64,000 bases of DNA from Chloracidobacterium sp. (GTDB lineage: Bacteria; Acidobacteriota; Blastocatellia; Chloracidobacteriales; Chloracidobacteriaceae). A program made the position numbers and the translations under genes. The stretch is from the NCBI GenBank assembly GCA_025057975.1, contig JANWUV010000003.1, positions 1-64,000 on the forward strand, given 5' to 3'. The notes below the pieces were generated by a model, which was not told the origin of the DNA, searched no databases, and was given only the letters and a program-made list of their open reading frames with translations. Numbering within the stretch: position 1 is the stretch's first letter; every line of letters begins with the position of its first letter. Shown in pieces: positions 5,294-35,428 of this stretch.

Positions 5294-5561
5294 CGCTGGT
5301 CACCTGACGGCCGCGTAAGCGTCATCGCCCGCCTTGCTAGGCGTCGCATGGAAGCGCGTTTTGGCGACGGACCGTGACAGCCAGCGCAACGGGCAAAGGT
5401 GGGCTGTTCTCCTTATGTTCGGCGGGACTGGCGACATGTCCTTCGCAGGCTGTGGAAGGTGTGTCGCCGCCCCCAGCCCGCCGACTGGGTGTTACGGCGC
5501 TGTATCGCTTTGGCTCTCTAAGGGTGTGCCTCGCTACTGCGCGCCGCCTGACGAAAGCTCG

Positions 5562-8322: not shown

Positions 8323-9420
8323 TCACCCGAAGAAGATGTCAAACGGTGAGTAACTGCCTTTGCAGATACCCTCGGCCCACGCTTTGTAGCGTCCGCCCGT
8401 AAACACACGGACGTTCTCCGCAACGCGATCCCACTCAAAGCTGTTGGCCGTCTCGATGAACTTCTTCCCCTTCGGAATGGACACTTTGAAGCGAATGCTT
8501 AGATCGGCCGGCTCAGAGTTGACGGCGATGCCGTGGTGCGCCAGTGGGACGAGCGGGTGGTTGAGCACCTTCCGCTTGCCGCCCTCAATCGGAACAGAAA
8601 AGCCCGGCAACTCCACGAACAACTTAACCTCAATCCCTTGGACGCTGGCGTTGAAGTTGCCTTGCAGCCGTGCAACGCGGCCGCCTTGATTGACCGGCTT
8701 GCCCAAGCCATCAATCGGGAAAAGTTCAAGCCAACGGCTGATGGAGTCCACAATCCCCGTGCCGCCGCCAGCAAACCGGAAGTCAATGCGGGATTTTTCA
8801 CCGCCTTCGATTTCGGAGAAGTAGTACACGTCAATATTGTCAAGGCTTTGCCCAGTTTGCTCCAGCGCATTCCACAACGGCCCAATCAGCCACACGTCCT
8901 TGATGTAGTCGCCAAAGTTGGGCGAGTTGCGGAAGGCATCCTGCATTTCCAGCCACGTATCAATGACTTCTTCGCTATCCAGCGGGACGCGCACCGACAG
9001 GTCATGGAAGAGATTGCCGCACAACAGGCGCTGCTTGCGCGCGATGATGTTGTCGTCAATCGCCTTCGACCGCCAGTAGCGCAGGCAATCCACGACGCCC
9101 TCAAACTCAAAGCGATGTGAAAACTTCCCAACCGTGATTTTGCCGTCGCCAGCGGCGACACGGCGCGTCGGCGACTCGTTGGCGATGTCGGTTTCACCTT
9201 CAACACGGCCTAGAATGCCGTCCACAATGGACTGCCCAAAGAAGGTGAGCCGTACCACGTCGTCCTCGATCTTCTTGGCTTCGAGTTTGAGTTCGCCGTC
9301 AATCGGCAACAGCGGCGAAGCCGAAGGAACATTGGAAATGCGGGCTTCCGCCCGAAGTGTACCCCAACCAGTAGCGTCAAGGTCGAGGTCGTAGTTTGCA
9401 GTGGTGAGTTTGCTTCCCAT
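8323..9420 (-). CDS. fmoA: Fenna-Matthews-Olson bacteriochlorophyll a antenna protein
   Basis: A 365-residue protein, the usual FMO length (about 366). ATG 9420 has GGAG upstream at the right distance. Blocks known from green sulfur bacterial FMO are recognisable: PSASPLLPIDGELKLEA, FGQSIVDGILG, DIANESPTRRV, VGKFSHRFEFEGVV, VPLDSEEVIDTWLEMQDA, WLIGPLWNALEQTGQ, GIVDSISRWLELFP, SQGIEVK-type QGIEVKLFVELPGFSV, LNHPLVPLAHHGIAV and the C-terminal EGICKGSY. FMO is a trimer with seven to eight bacteriochlorophyll a per monomer and sits between the chlorosome baseplate and the reaction centre on the cytoplasmic face. The cysteine near position 49 of green sulfur proteins is Gly42 here, while Cys353 is kept. 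The upstream spacer to pscB holds strong hairpins. The identification is very secure. Confidence 0.97.
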   Translation of the reverse strand: MGSKLTTANYDLDLDATGWGTLRAEARISNVPSASPLLPIDGELKLEAKKIEDDVVRLTFFGQSIVDGILGRVEGETDIANESPTRRVAAGDGKITVGKFSHRFEFEGVVDCLRYWRSKAIDDNIIARKQRLLCGNLFHDLSVRVPLDSEEVIDTWLEMQDAFRNSPNFGDYIKDVWLIGPLWNALEQTGQSLDNIDVYYFSEIEGGEKSRIDFRFAGGGTGIVDSISRWLELFPIDGLGKPVNQGGRVARLQGNFNASVQGIEVKLFVELPGFSVPIEGGKRKVLNHPLVPLAHHGIAVNSEPADLSIRFKVSIPKGKKFIETANSFEWDRVAENVRVFTGGRYKAWAEGICKGSYSPFDIFFG

Positions 9421-9453
9421 ACGGCGGTCTCCTGCAAGGGATAAGAAAATCAC

Positions 9454-9483
9454 CGGCCGGCAGGCGGCGCGACGCGCCGGCCG
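9454..9483 (-). other. GC-rich hairpin just upstream of fmoA
   Basis: CGGCCGGC (9454-9461) and GCCGGCCG (9476-9483) form a perfect 8-bp stem that can be extended inward. In the minus-strand transcript it is followed by a T-rich stretch (TGATTTTCTT) and then the fmoA ribosome site. It may act as a leaky terminator or as an RNA-processing or stability element between pscB and fmoA. Confidence 0.5.
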
Positions 9484-9582
9484 CAATCGCCCGTTTCGTA
9501 TTGGCGGGCGGCGGATTACTGCTGTGCAGGGGACGCAAAAATGTGGAAACCGTGCTTTCGGGACGGGGCTTCCATCCGTCCG

Positions 9583-9611
9583 GCCGCCGCAGCCGAGTGG
9601 GCTGCGGCGGC
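9583..9611 (-). other. Perfect 12-bp stem-loop in the pscB-fmoA spacer
   Basis: GCCGCCGCAGCC (9583-9594) and GGCTGCGGCGGC (9600-9611) form a perfect inverted repeat with a 5-base loop. No T-run follows in either direction, so it is more likely an RNA stabiliser or pause site than a classical terminator. Confidence 0.55.
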
Positions 9612-9635
9612 GTCTCCGGGGGTTGGTTGTCTACC

Positions 9636-9665
9636 GTGTGGAACGTCGCGGGGGCGTTCTCACAC
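9636..9665 (-). other. Stem-loop directly after the pscB stop
   Basis: GTGTGGAACG (9636-9645) pairs with CGTTC-T-CACAC (9655-9665) with one bulged base and a 9-base loop. It begins 12 bases after the pscB stop codon. Probably a 3' end stabilising structure of the pscA-pscB message. Confidence 0.45.
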
Positions 9666-9677
9666 TTCCAAGTTACT

Positions 9678-10184
9678 TCACAAAATCGATCCGATTCGCG
9701 TCAATTCATCCCGCTGACGCCAGTATGGTTCGTCCACCATTTCGATGTGCAGGTAATCCTCCATGTACTGCGTCCGCGAGACGCCGCCTTCCGTGAAGAC
9801 CACCGCGTCGGTCGGACACGTTCCGGCGACAAAGCACAACGAGCAACTAATGCACCGGGTTTGGTCAATCCAGTAGGTTTCGCCGCCGTCCAAGACGGCT
9901 TCCACGTCGCGCGGCAGAATGGCGTTGACTTTGGGCGGACACTCATCCGTACAGTAGCCGCAGCCGATGCACAGCTCTTCGATGATCGTGTAAATCTGCC
10001 GCTCGCGCTTCTTCTTGGGCGGCGCAGCCTTCGGCCGCGACAACCGACTCGGCGGCCCTGGAATCGGCGGCGGGGCGACTTTCGCCGCCGCCTTGGCGGC
10101 TGCCTTGGCGGGGGCTTTGGCGGCCGCCTTCGCAGGCGCTTTCGCCGCAGCGTCATTGGTTGTTTCCAACTTTTCGTCTGCCAT
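9678..10184 (-). CDS. pscB: Reaction-centre iron-sulfur subunit PscB (F_A/F_B protein)
   Basis: A 168-residue protein. ATG 10184 (MADEKLETTND) has GAAAGG upstream. The first 60 residues are an Ala/Lys/Pro-rich flexible arm with repeated AKAPAKAAAK units, as also seen at the N-terminus of green sulfur PscB. Two [4Fe-4S] sites follow: Cys72-x2-Cys75-x2-Cys78-x3-Cys82 and Cys111-x2-Cys114-x2-Cys117-x5-Cys123. The second, spaced Cys-x5-Cys, is the pattern found in PscB rather than in PsaC. The protein binds the stromal (cytoplasmic) side of the PscA dimer, taking electrons from F_X and passing them to ferredoxin. It lies 175 bases after pscA with a hairpin in between. The function is secure from motif and context. 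Confidence 0.95.
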   Translation of the reverse strand: MADEKLETTNDAAAKAPAKAAAKAPAKAAAKAAAKVAPPPIPGPPSRLSRPKAAPPKKKRERQIYTIIEELCIGCGYCTDECPPKVNAILPRDVEAVLDGGETYWIDQTRCISCSLCFVAGTCPTDAVVFTEGGVSRTQYMEDYLHIEMVDEPYWRQRDELTRIGSIL

Positions 10185-10220
10185 GGTGACTTTGCCTTTC
10201 ACACCGGGAGATGACGGATA

Positions 10221-10247
10221 CTTTTTTCAAGCCCCGTGTTGAAAAAA
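10221..10247 (-). other. AT-rich stem-loop in the pscB leader
   Basis: TTTTTTCAA (10222-10230) and TTGAAAAAA (10239-10247) form a 9-bp stem with loop GCCCCGTG, about 37 bases upstream of the pscB start. On the minus strand the structure is followed by another A/T-poor stretch, so termination there is doubtful; it may influence processing or translation of pscB. Confidence 0.4.
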
Positions 10248-10311
10248 TGTCCATAACCATCACCGGCGGCAATGTGAACTTTGTCACAGGACTCGGCGTA
10301 CAGCTGCGAAA

Positions 10312-10353
10312 GCGTCGGCGGCGTTTGGGCGACACGCCGTGCGCCGCCGACGC
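10312..10353 (-). terminator. Strong stem-loop right after pscA (partial terminator or mRNA stabiliser)
   Basis: GCGTCGGCGGCG (10312-10323) and CGCCGCCGACGC (10342-10353) make a perfect 12-bp stem with an 18-base loop. It begins 6 bases after the pscA stop codon in the direction of transcription. Only TTTC follows, so it is at most a weak terminator. A structure here would favour pscA over the downstream genes, in line with two PscA per complex. Confidence 0.5.
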
Positions 10354-10359
10354 GCTCCG

Positions 10360-12957
10360 CTAACGATTTTGGAAGAAACCATCAGCGAAGTAGAGGAACA
10401 CCAACACGAACGTTCCCGTGTAGAAGAAGACTGTTCCCCAGAGTTTCGCCGTCGCCAAGTTTGAGACCGGGAAGCGCACTTCCTGAAGCGTCTTGATACC
10501 CAGCCGCTTGCCCACCAGTCGCACCCACCGACTCTGGATGTCGCCGCCTTCGGCACGGGAGCCGCGATCCTTGAACCAGAGCGCAAAGCTCACGAACCAG
10601 ATGAGGTGTCCCAGCAGCAACATGGCTGTCAGGTGGTTGTCCGTCCAAATCCAAGTGGTTTCGTTCCACATGTAGAGGAACACACCGCCCGTGTGACTGA
10701 TGTTGTGCGTGAGGTAGTACGCCTCGTTGCCGCGCGCCATCATGGTCGCAATCCAGCCGCCGTCGAGATACCAAGCAATTGCCGACAGCGGTTTGATGGA
10801 GAACAGGATGCAGAACCACATCTGATCCTGAATCGAGACGCCGCACGTCCCGCCTTTGACCGGCCCGATGCAGGGGAAGTCCGGCGACTGCTTGCGCCAT
10901 TCAAAGTCCCGATACCACGGGCTTTGGTAGTTGTGGAAAGCAATGCGCAGCAGCGGAATGAAGCCGAACAGCCACCCACCGATCATCAGCCAGAAGAAGA
11001 TCGCGTCGTTGATTTCGCCGTCTCGATGCTGGTCGCGCAGGTTCGAGTAGAGCACCGCCGGCGTGCTTTCTAGGCGCTCACGCCAAGCCAGCAGGTTGGC
11101 ATGGGCCTTTTCCAACGTTGGTCGGAACTCATCAAGAGCCGCTTGCGCGCGCTTTTTCTCCTCCTCGGTTTTGGCGTCGTCAACGGCGTTCAGCAGTGAA
11201 ACCGCCTTGAGGTGCGCCGCCAAGTAATCACTCCGCGCTTTCTTATCACCTTCCACCGTCTTCTGGTTCTGGAGATACCAGATGCCTTTGTCTACCCAGA
11301 AGAGCGGATTGACCTTGCGCAGGAAGTGCGTCCAACTTCCCCACTGTACAGCGTACAGTTTGGGCTGCCCCCACTCCGGCATGTAGTTGATTTCTTCAAT
11401 GGTCGTGAAGCTGTAGGTTGGCGACGACCCGATGCCCAGTTCTTCGTTGAGAATTCGGTCACCAACCTGCAAGTTGCGCGCTTTGACCAGTTTAGCCGTT
11501 CCGTCGGGGTTGGTGAGCCACTCACCGCCAGCTGTCGGGTCCCACGGATTCTTCGGACGGAAGACGCGGTAGCCGATATTGCCGGCTTCACCATCCATCT
11601 GAATGGCGCGGTAGGAGCGGAACTGATAGATGCCGAAGTTGAGGTCAAGCTCGGCACCGGTGTTCCAGCAGATCATCCCGTAGCCAAAGACGACGGTCAC
11701 GAAGCTGACGAACATCGTCGTCCCGACAATTTTGGTCTGGAGGTCGGGGTTCTGGAACCACGTAATGAACTTCGAGCGCGCCTGTTTGTAAGCGCCGGAG
11801 ATGTTCAGCCCGTGCAGATACTGCCCGCCGTGGAAGACGCCCGCCGCCACGTAGAGCAAGCCCACCTGAACGTGGTTGAACGTGATCATGTTGTGAATCA
11901 TCCGACCGGGATTGACGATTTTCTTCCCGTAGATGATGACGTTCATGTCGTTGAGGATCAGGTATGACGGGTGGTTGCGCAGCGCGAGGAAGCCCACAAT
12001 CGCCAGCGCGAAGCTCACATACCCGATAGCCGTCAGGTGAACGTGAAAGACGGCCTTGGTGTCCTCCAGGTGCGTAATGTTGATGCTGCGCGGCGGCCGA
12101 TACCACCAGTACGCGCCCAACGCGATGAACAACACACCCCAGACAAAACACATCGTCGTTTCGCCGTTGATGGTGTTCATCGGGTGCATGACCTGCTGGA
12201 GGTACGGGTCATACCAGCCATACGGGAACGGCGCCTGCTCAATCGGCATCATCCCGTTCGGCGTCATCACCTGCGCTGGTTGCAGGGGAACAGGCGGCTT
12301 ATCGAGCACGAACCACAGGACGAAACCCCAGATGAAAAACAGCAGGCCGATGTAGATGGTGTGCGGACTGAGGGCGTCGGCGTAGGTTCGCCTGAGAATC
12401 TTCCACGGCGTGTTCGCAAAGCTGCCCCACGGCAGGCCGACCTTGTACCATGGCCCGTCCGGCGTAAACCACTTGATCTGACATAGCCTTTTCAGACCAG
12501 GCACGTAAGGCAGCAGCCAGAAGATTTCGCCAATCGTAGCGCCGCCGCGCGCACCGTAGTAGTGCGCCGCGCCAGCGTAAATCAGCCACAGCCCCAACCC
12601 AATATGGAACGATCCCCAACCGAAGAGCCGAAAATCGGTCATCGTAAGGGGATACTGCCCGAAGAAGGGTAGGTGCTTGGTGCTAAACTCGCCGATGAGC
12701 GGCAGCCAGACCTTCTGGATCTGCTCGGTGTCGTACGGATCGTAAATCCCCAGTGAAATGAGACGCGGCCGCAGCGTGATGTTGACGTAGCCGTCATTCC
12801 ACATCGTCATACTAGCGTAGAAGTACGTCCCGATCAGACATGCCAGTCCACCAATCAACATCATGTGCGCGCCGAAAATGCGCTCCGGCGGCATCGGTAG
12901 TTCCAGTTTCTGGTACCACCGCTTCACCCCGTTGGCGTAGGACGAAAAACTGGCCAT
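10360..12957 (-). CDS. pscA: Homodimeric type-I photosynthetic reaction-centre core protein PscA
   Basis: An 865-residue membrane protein. ATG 12957 (MASFSSYANG) has GAGGGAG six bases upstream; the TTG two codons earlier has no spacing. Many hydrophobic helices fit the eleven-helix type-I plan: six antenna helices in the N-terminal part, and five electron-transfer helices after about residue 600. The hallmark is the F_X loop FPCIGPVKGGTCGVS near residues 694-708, where Cys696 and Cys705 from each monomer hold the interpolypeptide [4Fe-4S] cluster, like PsaA/PsaB. A hydrophilic insert (about residues 430-640) enlarges the periplasmic side. Histidine-rich helices (for example FNHVQVGLLYVAAGVFHGG) supply chlorophyll ligands. 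As a single gene it forms a homodimer. It is the first gene of the cluster, transcribed away from pdxT. Confidence 0.97.
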   Translation of the reverse strand: MASFSSYANGVKRWYQKLELPMPPERIFGAHMMLIGGLACLIGTYFYASMTMWNDGYVNITLRPRLISLGIYDPYDTEQIQKVWLPLIGEFSTKHLPFFGQYPLTMTDFRLFGWGSFHIGLGLWLIYAGAAHYYGARGGATIGEIFWLLPYVPGLKRLCQIKWFTPDGPWYKVGLPWGSFANTPWKILRRTYADALSPHTIYIGLLFFIWGFVLWFVLDKPPVPLQPAQVMTPNGMMPIEQAPFPYGWYDPYLQQVMHPMNTINGETTMCFVWGVLFIALGAYWWYRPPRSINITHLEDTKAVFHVHLTAIGYVSFALAIVGFLALRNHPSYLILNDMNVIIYGKKIVNPGRMIHNMITFNHVQVGLLYVAAGVFHGGQYLHGLNISGAYKQARSKFITWFQNPDLQTKIVGTTMFVSFVTVVFGYGMICWNTGAELDLNFGIYQFRSYRAIQMDGEAGNIGYRVFRPKNPWDPTAGGEWLTNPDGTAKLVKARNLQVGDRILNEELGIGSSPTYSFTTIEEINYMPEWGQPKLYAVQWGSWTHFLRKVNPLFWVDKGIWYLQNQKTVEGDKKARSDYLAAHLKAVSLLNAVDDAKTEEEKKRAQAALDEFRPTLEKAHANLLAWRERLESTPAVLYSNLRDQHRDGEINDAIFFWLMIGGWLFGFIPLLRIAFHNYQSPWYRDFEWRKQSPDFPCIGPVKGGTCGVSIQDQMWFCILFSIKPLSAIAWYLDGGWIATMMARGNEAYYLTHNISHTGGVFLYMWNETTWIWTDNHLTAMLLLGHLIWFVSFALWFKDRGSRAEGGDIQSRWVRLVGKRLGIKTLQEVRFPVSNLATAKLWGTVFFYTGTFVLVFLYFADGFFQNR

Positions 12958-13348
12958 ATGCAACTCCCTCTGTAGAGGACTCTCTCACCAACCGCGCCAC
13001 AACCACGCGCGGCGTCGTCAACAGCTTGACTTCACGGGGACGTTGAAGCGGGGACGGAAGCGAAGGACGGCGCGAAAACGGCCGTTGCGGGACCCTTGCC
13101 GTCGCCCGTTTATTCGAGGAATCGGTATCCAAAGAATTCGTGCAGAGCGTATGAATCGCGTCGGGCGAACGCGCATATCCCGTGATGGTTTCAACCTACT
13201 TTGGCGTTAAACCAAGGTCAAACATTACTTCGGCGTCAGGGTTTAGCGCTGCTTTGCGCCCGTCATGGCCTGATGGTCGAGACAAAGTTGGCGGGGCTTC
13301 CGTCGGCGTGGTAGCGTGTTTGACGCTGATCCGTGAAAGCGAAACGCT
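12958..13348. promoter_or_regulatory. Divergent control region between pscA and pdxT
   Basis: About 390 bases with no gene. It must contain the promoter of the reaction-centre cluster (leftward) and that of pdxT (rightward). A TTGAAA at about 13190 on the minus strand is a weak -35 candidate, and TTGACG at 13319 on the plus strand lies close to pdxT, but no convincing -10 box accompanies either. The pscA ribosome site GAGGGAG lies at its left edge. Confidence 0.5.
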
Positions 13349-33957: not shown

Positions 33958-34561
33958 GCGGATGCTGCTGTGGTTGCTGTTGCTTTTTGGCGTTTGCTGC
34001 CCACCGGTTGAGGGACAGACGCCGCGCCGGCGGGCGCTTCCGCCGCCTCCGCCGCCCGCGCCAGCTCCTGACCGAACGCCGGCTGAACCCACCGCGGTAC
34101 CGGCGTCTACCGCCGAGGCGGAGACAACCAATCCCATCGTGCGGGAACTCCGGGAACTGGTCAAGGCGGTGGCGGCGCTCAAAGCCCAGACCAAAATCCA
34201 AGCGGCGAACGTCTTGCTGGACGCCCTACTCAAGCGTCAGGCGACGCTTGAGAGCCAAACGGAGGCTATTCAGGCGGAGTATGACCGGCTGCGCGCCGAG
34301 CGGGCGGCCAATCTGGCGCGCCTTCAGGATATAGCCGGCGAACTCTCACGGATGGCTTATGTTTCACAGGCTGACGCCGAAGCGCGCATTCGCGCGGATG
34401 TGGCTAATCGGGACGCGGCCTTGCAGCCCCGGCTAACGAGCCTTGAAACGCGCTTCAATGAAAAACGCGCTGAACTGATGCAGGTCAACGCGGAGATTGA
34501 GCTGCTCAAAGGGCGGCTGCGGAGTCTGTTGGACGATACGTCTGACGCCGAGCGGCCGTAA
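33956..34561 (+). CDS. Exported coiled-coil protein, function unknown
   Basis: A 201-residue protein. ATG 33956 (or ATG 33962) begins a strong signal peptide LLWLLLLFGVCCPPVEGQ, and GGAGA lies nine bases upstream. A Pro-rich segment follows (RALPPPPPPAPAPDRTP), then about 150 residues of heptad-like helix (LKAQTKIQAANVLLDALLKR, LESQTEAIQAEYDRLRAERA). A periplasmic coiled coil resembling YbgF/LolB-associated proteins in shape but no family match. Its start overlaps the Nudix start on the other strand. Confidence 0.65.
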   Translation: MRMLLWLLLLFGVCCPPVEGQTPRRRALPPPPPPAPAPDRTPAEPTAVPASTAEAETTNPIVRELRELVKAVAALKAQTKIQAANVLLDALLKRQATLESQTEAIQAEYDRLRAERAANLARLQDIAGELSRMAYVSQADAEARIRADVANRDAALQPRLTSLETRFNEKRAELMQVNAEIELLKGRLRSLLDDTSDAERP

Positions 34562-34601
34562 GCTATCCGGTAGCGACCTACTGGAAAAGATAGCCGCTCG
34601 G

Positions 34602-34617
34602 TTATCGCTTTCGATAA
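34602..34617. promoter_or_regulatory. Small palindrome upstream of superoxide dismutase
   Basis: TTATCG-CTTT-CGATAA is a perfect 6-bp inverted repeat, 77 bases before the sod start. It could be an operator for a metal or redox regulator, or a weak terminator for the preceding gene; no T-run follows. Assignment is speculative. Confidence 0.25.
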
Positions 34618-34693
34618 AGTCCCAATGCCAAATTCTTTGCGCCGACAACCAATAGAACGCGCCACCTACAATGTTCTCAGGAGTGAAACGCAC

Positions 34694-35299: not shown

Positions 35300-35428
35300 G
35301 ATTTTTCCCCGACGCGCCCGGCGGCGTACCGCGCGCTCGCCCATAGGGACGTGGAGCTTAGCTCTGCGTCCCTGTGGGTTGCGTTTGGCGGTGCGGCCCG
35401 TTGCACTGCGTTACTGGGTAGGCGCGCT

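Follow-up and report, generated by a model that had tools for sequence, protein, structure and literature searches.

Conserved RNA structures in the pscA-pscB and pscB-fmoA spacers of the Chloracidobacterium reaction-centre operon

The two spacers of the pscA-pscB-fmoA operon of Chloracidobacterium encode RNA structures that are conserved across species. They lie on the operon strand, are single copy in the genome, are linked to these genes and, in part, show covariation. Probably, they are kept to set the amount of each protein from one shared message. The reading that we modestly favour is that hairpins behind pscA and pscB act as protective barriers and that structured leaders control the translation of pscB and fmoA. 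The operon occupies the minus strand of contig C3 of a Chloracidobacterium-type genome (G000), within a stretch of 64,000 nucleotides that was analysed as a whole and is called the window here. It comprises, in order, pscA, a 175-nt spacer, pscB, a 257-nt spacer, fmoA, the gene of an ArsA-type ATPase and those of two cytochromes c. PscB is matched to the reaction-centre iron-sulfur subunit of structure 7vzg (chain B). A review (PMC10968294) calls this arrangement the pscAB-fmo operon and places the genes of the cytochromes PscX and PscY downstream. All elements are given in window coordinates on the minus strand, and "after" and "before" refer to the direction of the operon (Table 1). A literature search, which reached few subscription journals, found no publication that deals with how this operon is regulated. 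To our knowledge, no mechanism is known that sets the ratio of core, acceptor and FMO protein from one operon in type I phototrophs.

Table 1. Genes, RNA elements and signals of the operon, with their positions in the window.
Feature	Position	Strand	Remark
pscA promoter-like site, TTGACC-17-TAGGTT	13193-13221	minus	conserved also in the sister genus
pscA promoter-like site and leader	12958-13221	minus	outside the spacers under study
pscA, reaction-centre core protein	10360-12957	minus	
H1, perfect 12-bp hairpin a few bases after the pscA stop codon	10312-10353; arms 10312-10323/10342-10353	minus	covariation
pscB leader hairpin, about 26 bp, ending at the pscB Shine-Dalgarno	10198-10278	minus	pairing over eight genomes
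pscB leader, outer stem UUCACAUUG/CGGUGUGAA	10270-10278/10198-10206	minus	
pscB leader, middle stem GGUGACGG/CCGUCAUC (GGUGAUGG in G000)	10257-10264/10210-10217	minus	
pscB leader, AT-rich 9-bp inner stem UUUUUUCAA/UUGAAAAAA	10222-10230/10239-10247	minus	
pscB Shine-Dalgarno region and start codon, AAAGGCAAAGUCACCAUG	10182-10199	minus	sequence
pscB, two-[4Fe-4S] acceptor protein	9678-10184	minus	
H3, imperfect hairpin (one unpaired base) directly after the pscB stop codon	9636-9665	minus	
Conserved ACCCC(C)GGAG	9614-9623	minus	present in 8/8 genomes
H4, perfect 12-bp hairpin of the fmoA leader	9583-9611; arms 9583-9594/9600-9611	minus	covariation
S1, GGACGG/CCGUCC	9561-9581	minus	compensatory pairs
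S2, S1 loop GGAAGCC with downstream GGUUUCC	9567-9573/9545-9551	minus	pairing
UGCGUCCCCUGC, anti-SD to the fmoA Shine-Dalgarno	9526-9537	minus	12/12 identical, eight genomes, two genera
H6, hairpin between anti-SD and SD	9489-9509	minus	hand-chosen arms; aligns poorly
H7, 8-bp GC-rich hairpin before fmoA	9454-9483; arms 9454-9461/9476-9483	minus	
fmoA Shine-Dalgarno (SD), GCAGGAGAC	9427-9435	minus	invariant in eight genomes
fmoA, FMO bacteriochlorophyll a protein	8323-9420	minus	

Orthologous spacers were taken from six more Chloracidobacterium genomes (G001-G006) and from a second genus of the same family (G007, locus L010), making eight genomes together with G000; G001 and G005 are nearly alike. 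The sister-genus sequence comes from a record titled as an Actinomycetota bacterium (JAAFHI010000098.1), with its contig named an Acidobacteria scaffold and an acidobacterial pscA-pscB-fmoA operon aboard; it is probably a mislabelled bin. Neighbouring non-photosynthetic genes have a DNA identity of only 59-76% with the four genomes used in the syntenic comparison, which makes conservation of non-coding sequence meaningful. Within the five-genome syntenic block, invariant columns make up 63% of the pscA-pscB spacer, 35% of the pscB-fmoA spacer and 11-23% of five other spacers, with 41% for the pscA leader and 64% for a tRNA-bearing spacer. This baseline for spacers is drawn from the syntenic block and the 64-kb window. 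Some alignments were trimmed or made by hand; in alignment A6, the G006 row is without its 14-nt duplication, and a few bases immediately upstream of the start codon are missing from the G007 row. For some elements the stem arms were chosen by hand, which biases them towards pairing, and the main claims rest on other tests.

Comparison of fold energy with shuffled spacers had been proposed in a preliminary description of this DNA, and both spacers indeed fold better than their shuffles. The pscA-pscB spacer reaches -69.9 kcal/mol and the pscB-fmoA spacer -110.2 kcal/mol, respectively 2.7 and 3.3 sd below dinucleotide shuffles, and 0/200 shuffles were as low in either case. The lowest z (-5.05) among 1279 100-nt windows along the whole minus strand belongs to positions 10301-10400. 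Averaged over the eight genomes, the single-sequence z is -3.0 and -3.1 for the two spacers vs -0.1 to -0.3 for coding controls. The consensus folds give z values of -4.3 for pscA-pscB and -6.6 for pscB-fmoA (RNAalifold against column-shuffled alignments that preserve gap pattern and conservation class; 0/100 shuffles each). As controls, nine tests were run on seven stretches elsewhere in the block (the tRNA spacer, the pscA leader, fmoA-arsA, arsA-cyt, cyt-cyt, and a further two spacers tested on each strand); their consensus z values range from -1.2 to +0.8. As the tRNA spacer itself scores merely -1.0, the consensus-fold test is insensitive to invariant structures.

It is very improbable that, in this GC-rich genome, the stems are chance features or dispersed palindromic repeats, a reading for which one may cite the base composition, short GC inverted repeats inside neighbouring genes and local repeats in the sister-genus spacers. 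Shuffled sequences fold worse, pairing is maintained while the sequence changes, and the other spacers of the block behave otherwise; a dispersed palindromic repeat is ruled out by the single-copy status of both spacers. The preliminary view that most other spacers of the window lack such structures was right overall, but four of them also fold well on one strand: 35300-35428 (plus, z -4.7), 34234-34624 (plus, -3.8), 5294-5561 (minus, -3.2) and 2646-2832. Spacer 5294-5561 separates convergent genes where the cytochrome genes end; in five species it folds stably, with no consensus that could be aligned. The spacer list derives from automatic gene calls, so that pscA-pscB is absent from it and pscB-fmoA appears as 9487-9677 only.

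All five inverted repeats reported previously were located, and further elements were added to them, namely H6, a likely pseudoknot at 9545-9581, the long pscB hairpin and the invariant anti-SD. The preliminary description had regarded a lack of compensatory changes in other species as refuting, and the idea withstood this check, as such changes were found in H1 and in the core of the fmoA leader and, more weakly, in H7. In the seven genomes compared, 83% of H1 is paired, and five of its pairs are changed on both sides (eight double-changed cells). Its covariation score was reached by 0/500 shuffles, and pairing drops to 28-66% when the partner is slid by 1-3 columns. A long hairpin of unrelated sequence stands at the place of H1 in the sister genus. 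The conservation of H3 is weakly supported: its hand-chosen arms pair in five genomes, and the consensus fold of this part (segment A) alone is not significant. Local repeats (GAGTCTAAGAGTC-like and GATTGAAAAT-like; L010 1439-1668 and 2296-2612) occur in both sister-genus spacers, where they give rise to long hairpins that occupy the places of H1 and H3 and are unrelated to them in sequence.

Partial termination was among the functions first suggested for these stems. Leaky terminators, or attenuators, would lower the transcription of pscB and fmoA step by step, a reading to which the strong GC stems right after two stop codons (H1 and H3) and the CUUUC that follows H1 in 6/7 genus genomes lend some colour. 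It is nevertheless improbable, and partial termination in its canonical form found no support. No terminator-like site was detected on the minus strand of either spacer, no stem is backed by a conserved U-run, and H1 is never followed by more than three U in a row. Moreover, from the number of FMO trimers per reaction centre, FmoA is expected in excess over PscA, the opposite of stepwise attenuation. Rho-like or otherwise unusual termination may occur at the stems. As for the broader suggestion that the stems uncouple the amounts of PscA, PscB and FMO, segment-specific mRNA stability remains a good explanation for the hairpins close to the stop codons. A polycistronic pscA-pscB-fmoA message would carry conserved cis-acting structures in both spacers, with H1 and H3, placed a few bases past the pscA and pscB stop codons, most likely serving as barriers to 3'-5' exonucleases. 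We infer this barrier function, together with endonuclease cleavage that would turn each cistron into a segment with its own half-life.

Following the operon from pscB to fmoA, one meets H3, ACCCC(C)GGAG, H4, S1/S2, UGCGUCCCCUGC, H6, H7, a pyrimidine-rich stretch, GCAGGAGAC and the AUG. The core of this leader is formed by H4, S1 and S2, for which 91.4% of cells are paired in alignment A3 and nine are double-changed, a covariation score attained by 0/500 shuffles. In G003, S1 is maintained via two compensatory pairs (GACAG/CUGUC). S2 is paired in 94% of cells, its downstream strand reads GGYUUCC across genomes, one-sided changes pass through G-U only, and the helix is weak in G006. Judging from these pairings, S1 and S2 (9545-9581) probably form an H-type pseudoknot. 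ACCCCGGAG is invariant in two genera, and CUUCCG, which overlaps S2, is a candidate partner for it; another, competing pairing is therefore possible. H7 has 94% of its cells paired, including two pairs with double changes, and covaries less strongly than H1 or the leader core. It corresponds to the GC-rich stem originally described with a T-rich tail; the stem holds, but the T-rich stretch begins several bases later, varies between species and contains no conserved U-run.

The fmoA Shine-Dalgarno is complementary to UGCGUCCCCUGC at 8/9 positions, and the resulting helix is present in the minimum-energy fold of the G000 spacer. Its predicted probability is 0.35-0.99 in 6/8 genomes and about 0 in G001 and G005, where the SD pairs locally instead. 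The helix is without covariation because both of its sides are invariant, and a complement equally good arises in 0.5-6.5% of shuffled leaders. The complementarity is suggestive of an anti-SD that closes over the fmoA SD, not proof of it.

The AT-rich stem noticed earlier before pscB exists but forms only the apical part of a longer hairpin (10198-10278). Of the cells of this hairpin, 94.6% are paired across the eight genomes, and its outer and middle pairs are all present in 7/7 genus genomes. G006 has lost one base from each arm of the inner stem, and the sister genus carries a comparable, largely recoded hairpin at this place. One-sided changes give G-U on the operon strand and would give A-C on the opposite strand, which argues that it is the operon-strand RNA of this hairpin that is selected. 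The roughly 110 nt preceding pscB are also strongly conserved in sequence, and the consensus z of this segment (F) is -1.6; such conservation exceeds the needs of the fold, so a role of a protein, a small RNA or the DNA itself may also contribute. A coding upstream ORF in the leader was rejected, since indels in G001, G004, G005 and G006 shift any frame, and inspection of the alignment shows those of G006 paired across both inner-stem arms. In the same genome (locus L014), a 14-nt tandem duplication doubles the arm GGTGTGAA immediately ahead of the pscB Shine-Dalgarno.

A DNA-level reading of the pscB leader would assign it a CRP/FNR-type operator and an internal pscB promoter. It draws on the strong conservation of the leader and on the CRP-like palindrome TGTGACAAAGTTCACA (10273-10288), which overlaps the 5' arm of the hairpin, is an exact TGTGA-N6-TCACA in G000 and is unique in the genome in its extended form within 3 mismatches. 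The palindrome is exact only in G000, however, other species having TGTAA or TGTAAT in its first half; with one mismatch allowed, chance would supply about two such sites in 64 kb, no sigma-70-like promoter was found, and the strand-specific G-U changes fit RNA. We hold this reading to be quite improbable.

Much of the conserved material in both spacers is 5' leader beside the start sites of pscB and fmoA, which points to translation. In the favoured reading of barriers combined with leaders, the leader of the next gene would begin downstream of each barrier. For pscB it would consist of the long conserved hairpin that ends at the ribosome-binding site, and for fmoA of a multi-element leader (H4, pseudoknot, H6, H7) whose invariant anti-SD could close over the SD. 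Most likely, these leaders would set translation initiation of PscB and FmoA, in a fixed or a regulated manner, and thereby how much iron-sulfur acceptor and antenna trimer is made relative to the reaction-centre core.

Alternatively, both leaders could be true switches, either riboswitches or protein-responsive elements, that choose between competing pairings. In pscB, a start-codon helix between GGUGAC of the leader and GUCACC just before the AUG is predicted to compete with the leader hairpin; in fmoA, S2 would compete with CGGAG/CUUCCG, and the SD would be free or sequestered. Pigment, oxygen, redox state or an unassembled subunit have been considered as signals, and any such signal or ligand would have to be supposed. 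Such switching is rather unlikely on balance. Its attraction lies in ACCCCGGAG and UGCGUCCCCUGC, invariant in two genera and either unpaired or multiply pairable, in the predicted SD occlusion, and in pscB leader ensembles that are predicted to split between hairpin and start-codon helix, differently per species. The bistability, however, comes from energy models, which are weak evidence by themselves, and the start-codon helix is absent from the sister genus, so that switching of the pscB leader is not claimed. The elements are also confined to these genes, unlike most riboswitch classes, and match no Rfam class.

This confinement is evident from covariance models. R1, built from the fmoA-leader core and trained on the genus alone, finds one strong match (E below 1e-15) per Chloracidobacterium genome, invariably before fmoA. 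Its top match in the sister-genus contig is again the fmoA leader (E 0.002 in 75 kb), though the model was untrained on it. Outside the genus, R1 returned nothing at E 0.01 among 396 genomes sampled from the phylum, and its further matches were at chance level, with E of 0.014 and 0.03 in the class and 0.2-2 in the genus. R2, the pscB-leader model, whose training set includes the sister genus, gives one match per genome, the pscB leader, and otherwise chance-level matches. A search of Rfam (4227 families) yielded no credible match at the gathering threshold or at E 10. The two leaders are thus structured RNA elements outside Rfam with covariance models at hand, and the fmoA leader offers a concrete candidate for antenna-specific translational control.

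The nearest studied parallel is another photosynthetic operon. In the puf operon of purple bacteria, the antenna/reaction-centre ratio depends in part on stabilising RNA structures and on sites for RNase E (PMC6238624); as cited there, Klug et al. (1987) described intercistronic hairpins and segmental decay in the Rhodobacter pufQBALMX mRNA. Both operons encode reaction-centre and antenna proteins needed in unequal amounts and have stable hairpins between cistrons; the puf-type arrangement, a stable stem-loop shortly after a stop codon within the operon, is found at the H1 and H3 positions. The present operon differs in belonging to another phylum, in its unrelated type I reaction-centre genes, in its unrelated sequences and in the conserved leader of the next gene that each spacer also carries. 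Protective structures at the borders of operon segments are common in enterobacteria, e.g., malE-malF and menBCE (PMC5927463). There too the hairpins sit just downstream of a stop codon within an operon; here, extra leaders lie beside the following start sites. For puf the answer involved intercistronic RNA structure; the present reaction-centre operon, from a distant phylum, has its own set of conserved RNA elements, and the base-level predictions of pairing and invariant bases are directly testable.

Translational riboswitches and SD-sequestering leaders can carry H-type pseudoknots. The fmoA leader resembles them in being conserved and structured, and in its pseudoknot-like core, followed downstream by an anti-SD complementary to the SD, both of them invariant; this platform is predicted in six of the eight genomes and is free of covariation. 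It differs from them in matching no Rfam class and in being restricted to a single gene of a single bacterial family. That the fmoA leader, by itself or together with the pscB leader, constitutes a new class of regulatory RNA switch with CGUCCCC as a common recognition site is unlikely. Such a class would couple the synthesis of FMO and acceptor to bacteriochlorophyll supply, oxygen or unassembled subunits.

In both genera, CGUCCCC occurs in the pscA leader as well as in the fmoA leader. The pscA leader, about 200 nt long, has two CGTCCCC copies (13035-13057), small hairpins with some covariation (hand-chosen arms) and a hairpin over the SD; its fold energy is ordinary (mean z +0.5), which rules it out as a strong fold. 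In its extended form, CCGC-N3-6-RCGTCCCC, the motif shared by the two leaders was rejected as a regulon signature, as its genome-wide counts equal those of a reversed-pattern control. G000 has two extra exact copies, one in a coding frame and one in an unrelated spacer. With this search at chance, a shared regulator of the pscA and fmoA leaders is only an idea. Within the operon, PscB itself ranges from 168 to 208 residues over the eight genomes, with an Ala/Lys/Pro-rich N-terminal tract of variable length (9985-10184, minus) and a nearly invariant ferredoxin part.
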